Shown here: in pieces, positions 3,475 to 63,751 of the stretch | How positions within the stretch are numbered: the first letter of the stretch is position 1 | Layout of the letters: the number at the start of each line of letters is the position of its first letter | From: Bradyrhizobium sp. | GTDB lineage: Bacteria > Pseudomonadota > Alphaproteobacteria > Rhizobiales > Xanthobacteraceae | Length of the DNA stretch: 64,000 bases | Assembly (NCBI RefSeq): GCF_016213215.1 | Contig: NZ_JACRAW010000088.1 | Location: 1 to 64,000, forward strand | Reading direction: 5' to 3' | Translations under genes and position numbers: made by a program | Notes under the pieces: model-generated | The model's database searches: none | Seen by the model: only the letters and a program-made list of their open reading frames with translations | Told to the model about the DNA's origin: nothing

Positions 3475-3683
3475 ACGCCAGCCCTCCTTTCAATGCGATT
3501 GAACCGGCAATGTGACCATTGCTGGGTCCTCATAGTCCCTGCATTCATAGCGCTCCTGAGCGGGCCGTCTCAACCCTGGATGAGCGCGGGAGTCGATCTA
3601 GAAAGCGACTGTGAAGTGCATATTGCTTCTTTGCTCATGCAACCTGCGAGCAACCACGAGCTACCAGCCCTTGCGCTCCTCGA

Positions 3684-4330
3684 CAGGCAAATCACACCAC
3701 ACCTGCGTCCAGATCCGGCCGCAGAAATAATTCTCTTTTCCCGAATTCGGAATTGCCCTATATCACTCCCGTCCCACCCGACACGAGGGGCGTACGCGTC
3801 GTCACGAAACGTGGGTTGGGATGCGGTGGACGCGACAGCGTCGGCGCGCAAGGTGATCGCAGGGCGGATGGAGGATTGAGCCGAAATCCGTGAGCGAGAA
3901 GCCGGCGCGCAGGACGAACGACGTTGTTCTCCGGCTTTCTTGACGGCATGGCGGGCGCAAGTCCGGCGAAGCCGTCAGGCGAAGACGGATCGCGTACGGC
4001 AAAACCGTGTGGTCCTGGCACCCGTTGCTGGTGTCAAGCCTTGCGGAGGCGATGTCGCCCCAACCGGGTCGATTTCGCCGTCAATTCGCGAGGCGACGGA
4101 GGCAAGACGAATTCGTCTCCGGGGAGAGCACGCCATAAGCCGTAAACCCACTGCGCAGGGAAGGCCGGGTGTCGTCGGCTGTACCTGTATGCTCGTGTGC
4201 AGCTTCCTTGCGCAATTCGCACACGAGACCGCGGGTGCAGCGGGCACCCGGTCTTCCCTGCGCCCTCGTCTTTGAAGAGGGTGTGGAAGTCACGCAAAAC
4301 TCGGGCAGAAAATGCCGCGAGAATGCGCTC
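3684..4330 (+). repeat. ~650-bp structured non-coding repeat, copy 1 (near full-length)
   Basis: The gene-free stretch upstream of the IS matches a second locus at 46785-46973 in inverse orientation. Shared blocks read from the plus strand are GGCAAATCAC (3686), AAATAATTC followed by GAATTCGG (3725-3751), CCGTCCC, the nearly exact CACGAAACGTGGGTTGGGAT run with ~35 bp of flank (3782-3825), and GCAAAACTCGGGC (4294-4306). The middle part, absent from the other locus, contains GACGGAGGCAAGACGAATTC and a nested hairpin at 4153-4263. All ORFs here are short, overlap on both strands and lack supporting features. I recall similar sequence from many Bradyrhizobium intergenic regions. Confidence 0.7.
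4153..4281. other. Nested hairpin inside the repeat (candidate structured RNA or cruciform)
   Basis: An outer 19-bp stem with one mismatch joins 4153-4171 (GCGCAGGGAAGGCCGGGTG) and 4245-4263. An inner perfect 9-bp stem pairs CTCGTGTGC (4192-4200) with GCACACGAG (4219-4227). A short hairpin GGGTGC/GCACCC sits at 4233-4249, and CCCTC/GAGGG follows at 4263-4281. This much organised pairing is unlikely by chance in 130 bp. Whether it is transcribed is unknown. Confidence 0.6.
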
Positions 4331-4387
4331 CCATGTCCCCTTCGGCTGTTTGAAATTCGAATCCAACTGGCGAGAGAGGATCCTCGT

Positions 4388-4476
4388 CCTGAGGAGCGCG
4401 CCATCGGCGCGCGTCTCGAAGGGCGAGGCCACCAGCGGGGCCTTCATCCTTCGAGACGCGCTTTCGCGCTCCTCAG
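4388..4476. repeat. ~90-bp palindromic repeat, split by the IS element
   Basis: CTGAGGAGCGC at the left and GCGCTCCTCAG at the right are exact inverse complements. Inner segments GTCTCGAAGGGCGA and CATCCTTCGAGAC also pair. A related copy lies at 58303-58411 with intact flanks (GTCACCCTGAGG...CCTCAGGATGAC). In this copy the right flank is separated: the GATGAGG that should follow CTCAG is found after the IS, at 5993. Confidence 0.7.
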
Positions 4477-5988
4477 AGCGTGTGAATTTTTGTTGGCTTG
4501 GGCGAAAAATGTAGCCGGTGCGGTGCAGGTGTGATTCCCTGCAAGCATTGATTTGCAGAGGGTGGAGAATGGCTGAAGACAAGCTGTTCGGAGAACTGCC
4601 TGAACAGGCGAAACGACAAACCGATGCGGGGTCGGCGGGCGCGCCGCGTCTGCGCGAGCCGCGGCGGGATCAGATTGAATTGCGAGCGGTTGATATCGAG
4701 AGCCTGATCGGGGAAGACCATCCGGCGCGAGTGATCTGGTCCTATGTCGAAGGTCTTGACCTGCGCGAGCTTGAGGATCGGATCAAGGCCCGGGGCGACA
4801 GGCCTGGTCATCCGGCAACATCGCCGCGGCTTTTGCTGGCGCTGTGGCTCTATGCGACCAGCGACAGGGTGGGAAGCGCTCGGGCTCTGGAGCGCCTGTG
4901 CGAGAGCCACGATGTCTATCGCTGGCTGTGTGGCGGCGTCTCGGTGAACTACCACACATTGGCGGACTTCCGGGTCGGATATGCCGATCTGCTCGACCGG
5001 CTGCTTGCCGAGCATCTGGCGGTGTTGGCGGAAGTGGGCCTGGTCGATCTCAACAAGCTGGCGCAGGATGGTGTGCGGATCCGGGCGAGCGCCGGGGCCG
5101 CGTCGTTCCGGCGCGAAGCAACCCTCGATCGGCATCTGGCGACCGCGCAGTCGGTCGTGGCGGAGCTCAAGCGCGAGGTCGAGGCGCGCTCCGATTCCAG
5201 CAACCAGCGCATCAAGGCGGCCAAGGAGCGAGCGGCGCGTGAGCGCACCGAGCGCTTGAAAGCAGCGCAGGCCGCGCTCGCCGAGATCAAGCGACAGCGC
5301 CAGGCGCGCGAAGAAAAGCGCAACAATGGCAAGAAGCCGAAGGAGCCGCGTGCCTCCACCACGGACCCGCAGGCTCGCGTCATGAAGATGGCCGACGGAG
5401 GCTTCCGCCCCGGATACAATGTGCAGGTGGTGAGCGCGGCCGGCCAGCAGATCGTCGTCGGGTTCGATGTGACCAATGCCGGCTCCGATCGTGGCCTCAT
5501 GCGGCCAATGCTGGATCGCTTGCGCGCGCAGACCGGCCGCCTTCCAGGCTGCCATCTCGTCGATGGCGGCTTTGGCAGCGCCGAGGACATCGAGTGGGCG
5601 CACAATCAAGGGATTGAGGTCTACTGTCCGCCCACACAATCCAAACACCGTACCGATCCCTCCCTGCCGCGGCGCGGCGACGGCCCGGGCGTGTTGGCCT
5701 GGCGGGTTCGGATGGCAAGCGAGGCTGGCAAGGCCCAGTACAGACTCCGATCGGTCTGTGAGTGCATCCACGCCCGCTGGCGCAACTGGGACCTGCGGCA
5801 ACTCACCGTGCGGCCTCGAAAAAGTCCGTGCCGTCGTGCTCTGGTACGCTCTCACCAACAACATCCTACAGGGCCACCGACTCAAAACCGCCTGAGCACC
5901 ACACCAAGCACTCGGCCGCAGCTTCGCAACAATCCGCCCCTCCCACCTGCGGACCGCAAAATGCGAAATCCGAAAGCTTCACAAGCTG
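4477..5988 (+). mobile_element. IS1182-family insertion sequence
   Basis: About 1.51 kb. The left terminus AGCGTGTGAATTTTTG and the reverse complement of the right terminus AGCTTGTGAAGCTTTCG form imperfect inverted repeats. TCAG occurs immediately outside both ends (4473-4476 and 5989-5992) and looks like a 4-bp target duplication. Removing the element and one TCAG restores the palindromic repeat (CTCCTCAGGATGAGG). The single gene is a transposase with a frameshift near its 3' end, so this copy is probably no longer autonomous. End positions are uncertain by one or two bases. Confidence 0.72.
4569..5895 (+). pseudogene. IS1182-type transposase with 3' frameshift
   Basis: From MAEDKLFGELPEQ the frame encodes the DUF772-type N-terminal domain (HPARVIWSYVEGLDL ... 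LLLALWLYA), a charged coiled-coil insertion, and the DDE-type core (ADGGFRPGYNVQVV, LVDGGFGSAEDIEWA, YCPP). After RQLTVR the zero frame turns into unrelated sequence, while the +1 frame continues the expected family end, GLEKVRAVVLWYALTNNILQGH, to a TGA at 5893. The break lies at about 5811. Loss of one CG from GTGCGCGGCCTCG would explain it. A programmed shift is possible but there is no typical slippery heptamer. Confidence 0.8.
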
Positions 5989-6042
5989 TCAGGATGAGGA
6001 ATTGGCAGCATTGTCATTGGAAGCGCAGCGCCACGTGCTCAG

Positions 6043-6084
6043 TGTCATCGTCCGCGAAAGCGGACGATCCAGTTTTCCAGAGCA
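6043..6084. repeat. Short palindromic repeat (TCGTCCGC/GCGGACGA)
   Basis: GTCATCGTCCGCGAAAGCGGACGATCCAGT forms an 8-bp stem with a four-base loop. The motif, with trailing CCAGAG, is one I associate with dispersed Bradyrhizobium intergenic repeats. It lies between the IS and the AAA ATPase gene and could also act as a terminator-like hairpin for transcripts from the left. Confidence 0.5.
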
Positions 6085-6152
6085 GCAGTGAATGAGCCGA
6101 TGCGCCGCATCTTGCTTGATACCCCTTGGGTTCAGTGTTTGAGCTCGACCTA

Positions 6153-9757: not shown

Positions 9758-10702
9758 CTACAGCGCGCCCAGCTTGCGGAGGGATTCGCGCGTTGTCGGG
9801 AGATCAGGGCGAAGCTCGAGCGCCTTCCTGAAATCGGCAATGGCGCCCTGCTTGTCGCCCAGCCGCACCTTGGCCTGGCCGCGGTTGTTCCACGAATAAG
9901 CATCCGCGGGATCGTATTGCAGGGCCTTGTCGTAGTCCTGCAGGCCTCCTCTGCTGTCGCCCTTGAACAGGCGGATCATGCCACGGTTGCGCCAGCCGCG
10001 CGCATCGGTCGGAGCGATCGTGATTGCCTTGCCATAATCGGCTGCGGCGCGGTCGAGCTGCTCGCTGTCACGATAGACGTTGCCGCGGCTGATGTAGGCC
10101 AGCATGTTGTCGGGCGTAAGCTCGATCTGCCTGGTGTAGTCGGCGATCGCGCGCGCCGTCTCGTGCTGGCGATAATAGACGTAGCCACGGTTGTTGTAGG
10201 CGATTGCGAGATTGGGGTCGAGCTTGATCGCGCTGCTGAAGTCGGCCAGGGCTTCATTGACGTCGCCCTTTTTGCGGCGAGCATCGCCGCGGTTGTTGTA
10301 GGCGAGCGCGAACGAGGGATCGAGCTTGATCGCATGGTCATAGTCGGCGATGGCGCGGTTTAAATCGCCCTTGAAGGTGTAGACGCGCCCGCGATTGCTG
10401 AAGGCGCAGGGATATTTGGGGTGGATCCTGATCGCCTCGTCGAGATCGGCAAGCGCGGCATCGAGCTCGTGCTTTTCGGTGAGGCCATGGCCGCGGTTGC
10501 AATAGGCGGCAGCGAGCTTGTCGCCGGTCTCGCTCTTGGCATCGATCACGGCCGAACAGGCCTTCACCCGTTGATCCGGCATGCTGGTTGCGCCGATGCA
10601 GGTTTCCCAGCTCTGGTTAGTCTGGGTGGACGCCGGCGACGGCGTCAGAAAGGCCACCGCCAAAGCGGCCAGAGAGCCCAGAAGATAGACCGAGATGCGC
10701 AT
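9758..10702 (-). CDS. Exported tetratricopeptide-repeat protein
   Basis: 314 residues with a signal peptide (VYLLGSLAALAVAFL, cleavage near PASTQ) followed by about seven consecutive TPR units with the W/Y-G-A-F-P pattern, for example AYNNRGDARRKKGDVNEALADFSSAIKLDP. TPRs are helical scaffolds for protein partners; a periplasmic location is inferred. Two Cys pairs in the N-terminal part (C35/C49 and C68/C94 by my count) could form disulfides. No neighbour gives the partner. Similar proteins are numerous in Bradyrhizobium. Confidence 0.88.
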   Translation of the reverse strand: MRISVYLLGSLAALAVAFLTPSPASTQTNQSWETCIGATSMPDQRVKACSAVIDAKSETGDKLAAAYCNRGHGLTEKHELDAALADLDEAIRIHPKYPCAFSNRGRVYTFKGDLNRAIADYDHAIKLDPSFALAYNNRGDARRKKGDVNEALADFSSAIKLDPNLAIAYNNRGYVYYRQHETARAIADYTRQIELTPDNMLAYISRGNVYRDSEQLDRAAADYGKAITIAPTDARGWRNRGMIRLFKGDSRGGLQDYDKALQYDPADAYSWNNRGQAKVRLGDKQGAIADFRKALELRPDLPTTRESLRKLGAL

Positions 10703-46422: not shown

Positions 46423-46784
46423 CGCGAACCTGTTTCCTCGGCCCAACCCAGATCCGGGAAATTCGATCCCAAGATTGATTGGACTTGGGATCGTCCTTCG
46501 CCTTCGCGAGCGCCGCGGCCGTAGCCTTACGTACATTTTATTTCATGAGAGGGTGTGGCCAAAAAGCGGCGGTTGCGGGAACTGGCTGGGACGAAGGTTA
46601 AATCTTCCCTCACTGTTGCAAGCACGCAACAATCGTGTCGCGAAGGCCACGCATGGACTGCTTGTCTCGCTGCCCAGGGGCGTTTGTCCCGCCGGCCACG
46701 AGCGGAAGTGCAACCTGAGATGTTTCCGCTATGCGTGACCCGCGGTTTTCGGAATTTCCTTAACCGACACGGGCGCGATATCGC

Positions 46785-46973
46785 CTTCTCACGTTGCGCC
46801 CGAGTTTTGCTGTCCTCTTCACCCTCTTACCACCGCATCCCAACCCACGTTTCGTGACGACGCGTACGCCCCTCGTATGGGGCGGGACGGATCAACTATA
46901 CGCTAAATCCGAATTCTGAAAAAGCGAATTATTTTGGCGCCAGGCGGTGGACCGAGCCTTGGGGTGATTTGCC
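46785..46973 (-). repeat. Second copy of the 3.7-kb structured repeat, inverted and internally deleted
   Basis: Read on the minus strand this locus gives GGCAAATCAC, AAAATAATTCGC, AATTCGGAT, CCGTCCC, ACGAGGGGCGTACGCG and TCACGAAACGTGGGTTGGGATGCGG in the same order as 3686-3825. It then jumps directly to AGAGGGTG...GCAAAACTCGGGCG, which matches 4275-4307. About 450 bp of the interior, including the nested hairpin, is missing. The rest of the 46423-47145 gap holds short spurious ORFs and another REP-like fragment near 46993 (TAGCCCCGATGAGCGCGGCGA). Confidence 0.75.
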
Positions 46974-60153: not shown

Positions 60154-61497
60154 TCACACCATCATCATGACCGGGTTCTCGATCAGCTGCCTGAACGCGC
60201 CGATCAGTTCGGCTCCGAGCGCGCCGTCAATGGCGCGGTGGTCGCACGACAGCGTCACACTCATGATGCTCGCGATCTCGATGTTGCCGTTTCGCACGAC
60301 GGGGCGCTCCTCGCTGGTGCCGACCGCGAGGATCGTGGCATGGGGCGGATTGATCACCGCGGTGAAGTCCTTGATGCCGTACATGCCGAGATTGGAGACG
60401 GCGGTGGTGCCGCCCTGGTATTCCTCGGGCTTGAGCTTGCGCGCGCGGGCGCGCGCGGCGAAATCCTTCATCTCGCCCGAGATGGCCGACAGCGTCTTGG
60501 TCTCCGCTTTCCGGATGATCGGCGTGATCAGGCCGCCCGGCATGGCGACCGCAACGCCGATGTCGGAATGCCTGTGCTTGAGCAACCCACCGTCGGTCCA
60601 GCTCACATTGCAGTCCGGGATCTTCTGCAGCGCGACCGCCATGGCCTTGATGACGAAGTCGTTCACCGAAAGCTTGTAGAGCGGCTTCTTCTCCTTGTCC
60701 TTCGGCGCGGCGGCATTGATCTCCTCGCGCGCGGCGAGCAGCTTGCCGATGTCGCAGTCGATGGTGAGGTAGAAGTGCGGAACGTTCTGCACCGAGGCGG
60801 TCAGGCGCTGGGCAATGGTGCGGCGCATGTTGTCGTGCGGCACCACCTCGTAGGAGCCCGGTTCGAACAGCGCCAGGATCTGCTTGTCCGACATCGACGG
60901 CGCGAGCGCGGGCGCGGCCGGCGCGGCCGCGGGGGCCTTCAGTCCCTTGCCCGACTTCGCCTCTTCGACGTCACGGGCAATGACGCGGCCATGCGGGCCC
61001 GTGCCTGATATCATGGAAATCTCGATGCCCGCCTCTGTCGCCAGGCGTCGGGCGAGCGGAGAGGAGAAGACGCGGCCGTGGCCATTGGTCTGCGGCGCAG
61101 CCTGCGCAGGAGCGGCGGGCGGCGCGGTCGGCTTGGCGGCAGCGGGAGCGGGTGCCGGCGCGGGTGTCGCCGCAACCGGAGCCGCGGCGGCCTTCGGCGG
61201 CGCGCTGGAGGCCGACGGCTTTGCCCCGCCGGCGCTGGCGGCCTTGACGTCCTCGCCCTCACCCGCCAGCACCGCGATCACGTCGTTGACGGCAACGTCC
61301 TGCGTCCCTTCCGGGACCAGTATCCTGGCGATCGTGCCCTCGTCGATCGCCTCGACCTCCATGGTCGCCTTGTCGGTCTCGATCTCGGCGATGACGTCGC
61401 CGGACTTGACCTTGTCGCCCTCTTTCTTCAGCCACTTGGCGAGGTTGCCCTTCTCCATCGTCGGCGACAGGGCGGGCATCAGGATGTTGATAGGCAT
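60154..61497 (-). CDS. pdhC: Pyruvate dehydrogenase complex dihydrolipoamide acetyltransferase (E2)
   Basis: 447 residues. One lipoyl domain with the lipoylated lysine in [17 protein letters not shown], an Ala/Pro-rich linker, a peripheral subunit-binding domain (SSPLARRLATEAGIEISMISGTGPHGRVIARDV), and the acetyltransferase core ending in VTLSCDHRAIDGALGAEL (HRxxDG catalytic motif). The start [17 protein letters not shown] at 61497 is certain from the domain. Confidence 0.96.
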   Translation of the reverse strand: MPINILMPALSPTMEKGNLAKWLKKEGDKVKSGDVIAEIETDKATMEVEAIDEGTIARILVPEGTQDVAVNDVIAVLAGEGEDVKAASAGGAKPSASSAPPKAAAAPVAATPAPAPAPAAAKPTAPPAAPAQAAPQTNGHGRVFSSPLARRLATEAGIEISMISGTGPHGRVIARDVEEAKSGKGLKAPAAAPAAPALAPSMSDKQILALFEPGSYEVVPHDNMRRTIAQRLTASVQNVPHFYLTIDCDIGKLLAAREEINAAAPKDKEKKPLYKLSVNDFVIKAMAVALQKIPDCNVSWTDGGLLKHRHSDIGVAVAMPGGLITPIIRKAETKTLSAISGEMKDFAARARARKLKPEEYQGGTTAVSNLGMYGIKDFTAVINPPHATILAVGTSEERPVVRNGNIEIASIMSVTLSCDHRAIDGALGAELIGAFRQLIENPVMMMV

Positions 61498-62350: not shown

Positions 62351-63751
62351 TCACCGGTAGCAAACGGCTTTGGCGGCCTCGACCACTTCGGCCGCCGACG
62401 GCAATGCGAGCTTTTCCAGGTTGGCGGCATAGGGCATCGGTACGTCCTTGCCGGACACGCGCACCACCGGGGCGTCGAGATAGTCGAAAGCGTGCTCCAT
62501 AATCCGCGCCGCTATCTCGGCGCCGACGCCGCTCTGCTGCCAGCCTTCCTCGACCGTGACGGCTCGCCCTGTCTTCTTCACCGAGGCAACGATGGTCTCG
62601 GTATCCAGCGGACGCAGCGTGCGCAGGTCGATGACCTCGGCCTCGATGCCTTCCTTGGCGAGTTCATCGGCCGCCTTCAGTGCATAGGTCATGCCGTTGG
62701 ACCACGAAATGATGGTCACGTGATTGCCCTTGCGCACCACGCGCGCCTTGCCGATCGGGATCACGTAGTCATCGAGCTTCGGCACCTCGCCGGTGTGGCC
62801 GTAGAGGACCTCGTTCTCGAGGAAGATCACCGGATTGCGATCGCGGATCGCGGCCTTGAGCAGCCCCTTGGCGTCGGCGGCAGAATACGGCGCGACCACC
62901 TTCAGGCCGGGAATGTGCGCATACCATGCCGAATAGTCCTGGCTGTGCTGGGCGGCGACGCGCGCGGCGGCGCCGTTGGGCCCGCGGAACACGACCGAGC
63001 AGCCCATCTGCCCGCCGGACATATAGAGCGTCTTGGCCGCGGAGTTGATGATCTGGTCGATCGCCTGCATGGCGAAGTTGAACGTCATGAATTCGATGAT
63101 CGGCTTCAAGCCCGCCATCGCCGCGCCGACACCGATGCCGGCGAAGCCATGCTCGGTGATCGGGGTATCGATGACCCGGCGTGCGCCGAACTCCTGCAAC
63201 AGGCCCTGCGTCACCTTGTAGGCGCCCTGATACTCGGCGACCTCCTCGCCCATGACGAAGACGTCGGGATCGCGGCGCATCTCCTCGGCCATGGCATCGC
63301 GCAAGGCCTCGCGGATGGTCATGGTGACCATCTCGGTCCCCTCCGGCACTTCCGGATCGGGCTCGGCAACGGCTTGCGGCGCCGCCGGCGCCTTTGCTGC
63401 GGCGGGTGAGACCGGGGCCTCGGTCTTCGCTTGCGCGGGCGCGGCGGATTCGGCGGCCTTCTTCTGTTGTCCCGGCATTGCCACCTTGGCGAGGTCGGCG
63501 GCGCTTTCGCCGTCGGCCAGGATGGTCGCGATCGGGGTGTTGACCGCGACGTCCGCGGTGCCTTCCGGAATCAGGATCTGGCCGAGCGTCCCCTCATCGG
63601 TCGCCTCGACCTCCATCGTCGCCTTGTCGGTCTCGATCTCGGCGATGACGTCGCCCGACTTGACCGGCTCCCCCTCCTTCTTCAGCCACTTGGCGAGGTT
63701 GCCCTTCTCCATCGTGGGCGACAGCGCAGGCATCAGCACTTGAATTGGCAT
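62351..63751 (-). CDS. pdhB: Pyruvate dehydrogenase E1 component, beta subunit with lipoyl domain
   Basis: 466 residues. An N-terminal lipoyl domain ([13 protein letters not shown] ... [16 protein letters not shown]) is fused through an Ala/Pro linker to the transketolase-like beta subunit ([41 protein letters not shown]). The extra lipoyl domain on E1beta is typical of Rhizobiales. The C-terminal transketolase domain is complete. The gap to pdhA is 27 bases. Confidence 0.96.

Follow-up and report, generated by a model that had tools for sequence, protein, structure and literature searches.

The element at positions 3681-4327 (+ strand) of the window, by which we mean the whole 64,000-nt stretch of Bradyrhizobium DNA analyzed here, is probably the gene for a structured non-coding RNA of about 560 nt that is encoded on the + strand and belongs to a dispersed multicopy family. 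With at least 53 copies whose mutations preserve one fold, the family looks like a high-copy, scattered group of large ncRNA genes. The case is strong that this is a real and unusually well-supported structured RNA family with a mobile-like spread. Among bacterial RNAs, large structured ones are rare, and several of them proved to be machines of an unexpected kind. A family without an Rfam entry, with dozens of copies scattered in soil symbionts that are widely used, would be a conspicuous group of genes to have been overlooked.

The limits of the element were set by a profile of the copies in its own genome, of which the window copy is one member. Aligned own-genome copies share a conserved 5' end, CGAC[A/G]GGCAAATCA, and extend to CGAGAATGCG, and similarity is lost outside these ends. 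An earlier note on this DNA had described a gene-free repeat with defined ends, which is borne out by the profile alignment over 3681-4327 and by the lack of a Pfam match for any ORF in the element. We rejected protein coding because Pfam gave no match and loop lengths vary freely among copies. The same note had pointed to an inverse copy at 46785-46973; the profile places it at 46783-46973 on the - strand, where the left ~144 nt (80% identity) are joined to a separate 47-nt right end and the central ~440 nt are missing.

All parts of the window copy lie on the + strand. A conserved upstream block (3726-3763), at the position of the TTGACA-N16/17-TATA(A/T/G)T sequence of other genera, is a putative promoter, degenerate in this copy. 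It precedes the predicted structured RNA (3764-4323, about 560 nt), which opens with a 5' hairpin domain, P1 (3773-3820), containing the near-invariant GAGGGGCG and CGTCACGA and showing double changes in 7 of the 8 pairs of helix 1. A multibranched core (3823-4154) follows, closed by a helix of GCGGTGG (3823-3829) with CCACTGC (4148-4154). Next come a long hairpin (4153-4263; outer stem 4153-4171/4245-4263, inner stem 4192-4200/4223-4231) and two small hairpins, CCCTC..GAGGG at 4263-4281 (helix 22 of the consensus) and CTCGGGC..GCCGCGAG with one bulged G at 4300-4321 (helix 23). A semi-conserved 3' tail (4322-4362, ..GGCTGTTTGAAATTCGAAT) has a similar counterpart in another genus. The hairpins of the earlier note (a 19-bp outer stem, with one G-U, a 9-bp inner stem and the small hairpins at 4263-4281 and 4300-4321) are all present, although the structured region is much larger than the 130 bp assigned to it and covers about 3770-4323. 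The near-invariant GAGGGGCG (3786-3793) could also pair with the near-invariant CGCCCTC (4262-4267) after the long hairpin, forming a possible 5'-3' pseudoknot in sequences too invariant for a covariation test.

Outside Bradyrhizobium, 11 of 18 copies carry TTGACA-N16/17-TATA(A/T/G)T-like boxes at a fixed distance from the fold, above what shuffled sequence yields. In these other genera the near-consensus promoter abuts the fold, with transcription predicted to start at the 5' strand of the first helix. The corresponding position in Bradyrhizobium copies is taken by a conserved block that is unlike the sigma-70 consensus. Scored against that consensus, they do no better than shuffled sequence, the window copy included, which gives no support for a sigma-70 promoter in them. 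No intrinsic terminator stands directly after the last hairpin. Both results count against the RNA-gene reading. A terminator-like hairpin at 4465-4482 overlaps a separate palindromic repeat at 4381-4476.

Copy numbers in this study rest on the results of search tools. The 5.8-Mb draft genome from which the window comes gave 101 matches to R1, a covariance model built on the 3' hairpin; 53 are full-length sense copies, and in the other 48 the model reads the palindromic hairpin in antisense. With BLAST, the region has dozens of further or overlapping matches in the same genome, at 72-88% identity (40 of 125 candidates scored). The earlier note had mentioned related sequence in many intergenic regions of the genus, and indeed R1 matches 38 of 41 Bradyrhizobium genomes, the remaining three having none. 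Within the genus, copy number ranges from 0 to more than 40 per genome, in counts that include antisense readings, which is odd for an important host RNA and counts against the RNA-gene reading. Low-copy lineages such as G077 or G069 have 2-13 model matches.

On a wider scale, R1 has matches in 18 of 40 genera within the family and, elsewhere in the order, in two genomes of a single other family; 288 other genomes of the class gave none. Named records that match the element are almost all Bradyrhizobium. Copies in divergent genera preserve the order of the 5' block and the 3' hairpin and keep a similar distance between them, and so does the one copy examined from the other family (L216). None of the plasmid and phage records searched carries the element, and among 18 viral contigs with pattern matches 17 lack it and the remaining one holds a fragment at the contig end; a phage- or plasmid-borne ncRNA was rejected because these collections gave no sign of carriage. 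Three copies of one genome (L266, L267 and L269 of G291) match only from about model position 424-435 onward and may share a boundary beyond which the 5' half is absent or replaced.

The fold is more stable than chance would give. For the 564-nt + strand of the window copy the predicted energy is -297.8 kcal/mol (z -8.2), and none of 100 dinucleotide shuffles folds as well. Its 135-nt 3' part alone reaches -86.7 kcal/mol, again with z -8.2, as one continuous hairpin of ~110 nt and two short ones. Over 68 Bradyrhizobium copies the consensus comprises 150 pairs, with 93.0% of cells paired against 86.8% in shuffled controls, and double changes fall at 61 pairs and in 695 cells against a shuffled mean of 205. 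Sliding the partners by 1-3 columns lowers pairing to 37-46%. The earlier note had proposed covariation in the stems as a check: of 56 sequences, 55-56 retain the 14 outermost pairs of the long hairpin, where A-U has been exchanged for G-C and G-C for C-G. In an R-scape-like test with a tree-based null, few pairs are significant within Bradyrhizobium, and all five of these lie inside the structure; across all genera, 7 of the top 10 pairs do. Two independent sets, one of 19 copies (18 from other genera) and one of 23 orthologues, show a similar architecture, the sequence of the long hairpin being largely different in the former. The structures were derived from the same alignments on which they were scored, a bias that the slide controls and independent sets reduce and do not remove. 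Compensatory base-pair changes exceed shuffled expectation, as in a conserved structured RNA.

The copies are intergenic. Genes that follow them, delimited by a simple rule based on composition, run antisense to the element in 61 cases against 31. Palindromic repeats tagged with CGTC or GTAG lie just 3' of many copies. Of 121 copies, 39 have a CGTCATTGCGAG-type repeat in the 300 bp on their downstream side and 7 on the upstream side; among the copies of genome G079 (L290-L304), a REP of some kind follows shortly downstream in about 13 of 15 by eye, with the CGTC or GTAG tag facing the element. In genome G026, the unit includes two such tagged palindromes upstream. The palindromic repeat at 4381-4476 of the window (CCTCGTCCTGAGGAGC..) stands immediately 3' of the element and is found beside several other copies too. 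A transposase ORF (4518-6095, DDE_Tnp_1 with DUF772) starts less than 200 bp downstream; it was not seen as a recurrent neighbor of other copies, and no partner gene is convincingly recurrent in their flanks. Elsewhere in the window are two 225-nt direct repeats (61273-61497 and 63527-63751), 84% identical and 2254 nt apart, and three 87-nt direct repeats with a spacing of 102 nt (10184-10474), the latter probably a repeat-protein gene.

The 29 own-genome copies placed in a tree form one clade (support 0.986), which indicates lineage-specific amplification. The sites of two own-genome copies, next to phaR-like and murI-like genes, lack the element in 29 of 29 relatives, which are too diverged for reading the junction or a precise target duplication. 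At a third locus, beside an M20-peptidase-like gene, it is present in 28 of 30 fetched genomes, counting some truncated, broken or contig-end-cut copies; the intact copies there form one clade (0.948) and average 84% identity, with compensation still visible. (All three gene names come from reading translations, not from a family search.) The family both spreads in a lineage-specific manner and retains old fixed copies. The upstream block travels with the unit, and a copy made from RNA would lose it; we therefore infer copying at the DNA level. One pair of G079 copies with a nearly identical RNA core and different promoter regions suggests gene conversion as a spreading route. However, orthologues cluster by locus, so gene conversion is not dominant.

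These patterns invite the hypothesis of a selfish, non-autonomous mobile element, in which the RNA would exist for the mobility of the element, be it as guide, template or transposase cofactor, and the enzyme that moves it, a transposase or recombinase, would be encoded elsewhere. The copies are dispersed and non-orthologous, as those of a MITE or other non-autonomous transposon are, and the lineage-specific clade, the two empty sites and the range in copy number all fit, as do the units that travel with adjacent palindromic repeats and the G026 copies, which are very alike and often at contig ends. However, the aligned copies have no complementary ends that would make terminal inverted repeats, and no target duplication, partner gene or autonomous copy was found. 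Moreover, where the element is fixed at one locus over a large part of the genus, its copies go on compensating, behavior not expected of dead insertions. We consider this explanation unlikely. The earlier note had left the choice between a mobile element and a structured RNA; the RNA half stands strongly, on many copies, covarying stems and a strand-specific G-U bias, and the mobile half only as lineage-specific spread; terminal inverted repeats, a target duplication and a partner transposase were not found. Its observation was real, and it understated the case.

Evidence for the level at which the fold is selected comes from the two strands. The - strand of the window copy folds with z -4.1 against -8.2 for the + strand. 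On the + strand the consensus contains 1213 G-U pairs and 149 A-C mismatches, or 8:1, and even a structure predicted for the reverse strand shows more + strand G-U than A-C. Neither duplex DNA nor a - strand RNA would produce such an asymmetry, which, like the better forward fold, is a property of one strand. A reverse-strand RNA was rejected for its worse fold and wrong wobble bias. When changes from Watson-Crick pairs are placed on trees, those on terminal branches give G-U over A-C at 82:21 for own-genome paralogues and 71:25 for orthologues. With events on internal and terminal branches pooled, the G-U excess goes beyond a control in which these transitions were counted at unpaired sites (p=1e-11 for paralogues, 1e-3 for orthologues), and paired sites change about 2-2.5 times slower than unpaired ones. 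Individual copies are under RNA-structure selection after duplication. Singleton variants by themselves show no significant G-U excess, which suggests that selection on any single copy is modest.

A DNA-level palindromic element of the REP/BIME kind, whose hairpins would matter as DNA or as protein-binding sites and not as RNA, would account for an intergenic, repeated unit with CGTC- and GTAG-tagged REPs on its 3' side; we judge it highly improbable, because duplex DNA gives no meaning to an excess of G-U over A-C or to a fold that is better on the forward strand, and because a unit of ~650 bp with long-range helices is unlike REPs of 20-40 bp. A degenerate, strongly diverged member of a known ribozyme or intron class (an ORF-less group II intron, omega RNA or bridge RNA) is equally hard to credit, for although the copies are dispersed and ORF-less group II introns are of like size and complexity, there is no Rfam match at gathering thresholds, no domain V-like 3' end by eye and no partner ORF convincingly recurrent in the flanks.

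Returning to the RNA-gene reading, we propose a family of structured RNA genes that occupy scattered intergenic sites in Bradyrhizobium and related genera. Upstream, each unit carries a promoter-like block; its fold then runs from a 5' hairpin through a multibranched core, which a long-range helix closes, to a hairpin of ~110 nt and two small 3' hairpins. The + strand would be transcribed in Bradyrhizobium, and the unit would spread as DNA. The product may then act in trans as a structural RNA supplied by many loci, probably as an RNP or RNA-assembly scaffold; this is the weakest step, and we offer it tentatively. It is likewise conceivable, if somewhat doubtful, that the family is a new kind of bacterial element: a high-copy, dispersed, self-contained, ornate RNA gene of ~560 nt with SINE-like spread, kept functional copy by copy. 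This would imply an RNA-based mobility system or else an abundant RNA machine in Bradyrhizobium and its relatives, novel in either case. The combination of mobile-like spread and copy-by-copy selection is unusual, and makes the question of a selfish or a host RNA testable in culturable strains.

Several known systems resemble the element in part. Prokaryotic MITEs are likewise non-autonomous and dispersed, with deletion derivatives, but here no terminal inverted repeats or target duplication were found and structure is selected at the RNA level. The GTAG- and CGTC-tagged REPs (PMC3733652) adjoin the element, mainly on its 3' side and with the tag facing it, yet they are palindromes of 20-40 bp whereas the element specifies a multibranched RNA of ~560 nt. 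Br-REP1 and Br-REP2 of Bradyrhizobium japonicum (PMC5082802) are intergenic, repeated, form RNA hairpins and come from the same genus; identity with them was rejected because the published cores lie inside 0 of 121 copies, and a looser Br-REP2-like palindrome flanks only some copies. According to that paper, Br-REP2 belongs to a larger repetitive element in the family that the authors do not show; the element of the window could be related to it. The mobile/repeat sequence candidates (MRSC) of a 50-genome survey (PMC11109978) are also structured motifs in multiple copies with inconsistent gene context, and the element would first be sorted into the mobile/repeat candidate class of that study. 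However, MRSC are described as frequently lying with genes for a transposase, integrase, nuclease or helicase (PMC11109978), and no such gene recurs beside the element.

Across the whole window, Rfam 15 yields no family at gathering thresholds; over the element at E up to 5 it gives only a spurious miRNA model, and its group II intron models do not match. The open literature, subscription papers being outside the scope of the search, yielded no description of the ~560-nt RNA. The large RNA classes OLE, GOLLD and ROOL are few-copy. The element resembles OLE, GOLLD and ROOL (PMC12286853, PMC9723947) in its length of hundreds of nucleotides, its elaborate conserved fold and its lack of an ORF, but differs from them in having no Rfam match and in being present as dozens of dispersed chromosomal copies per genome.
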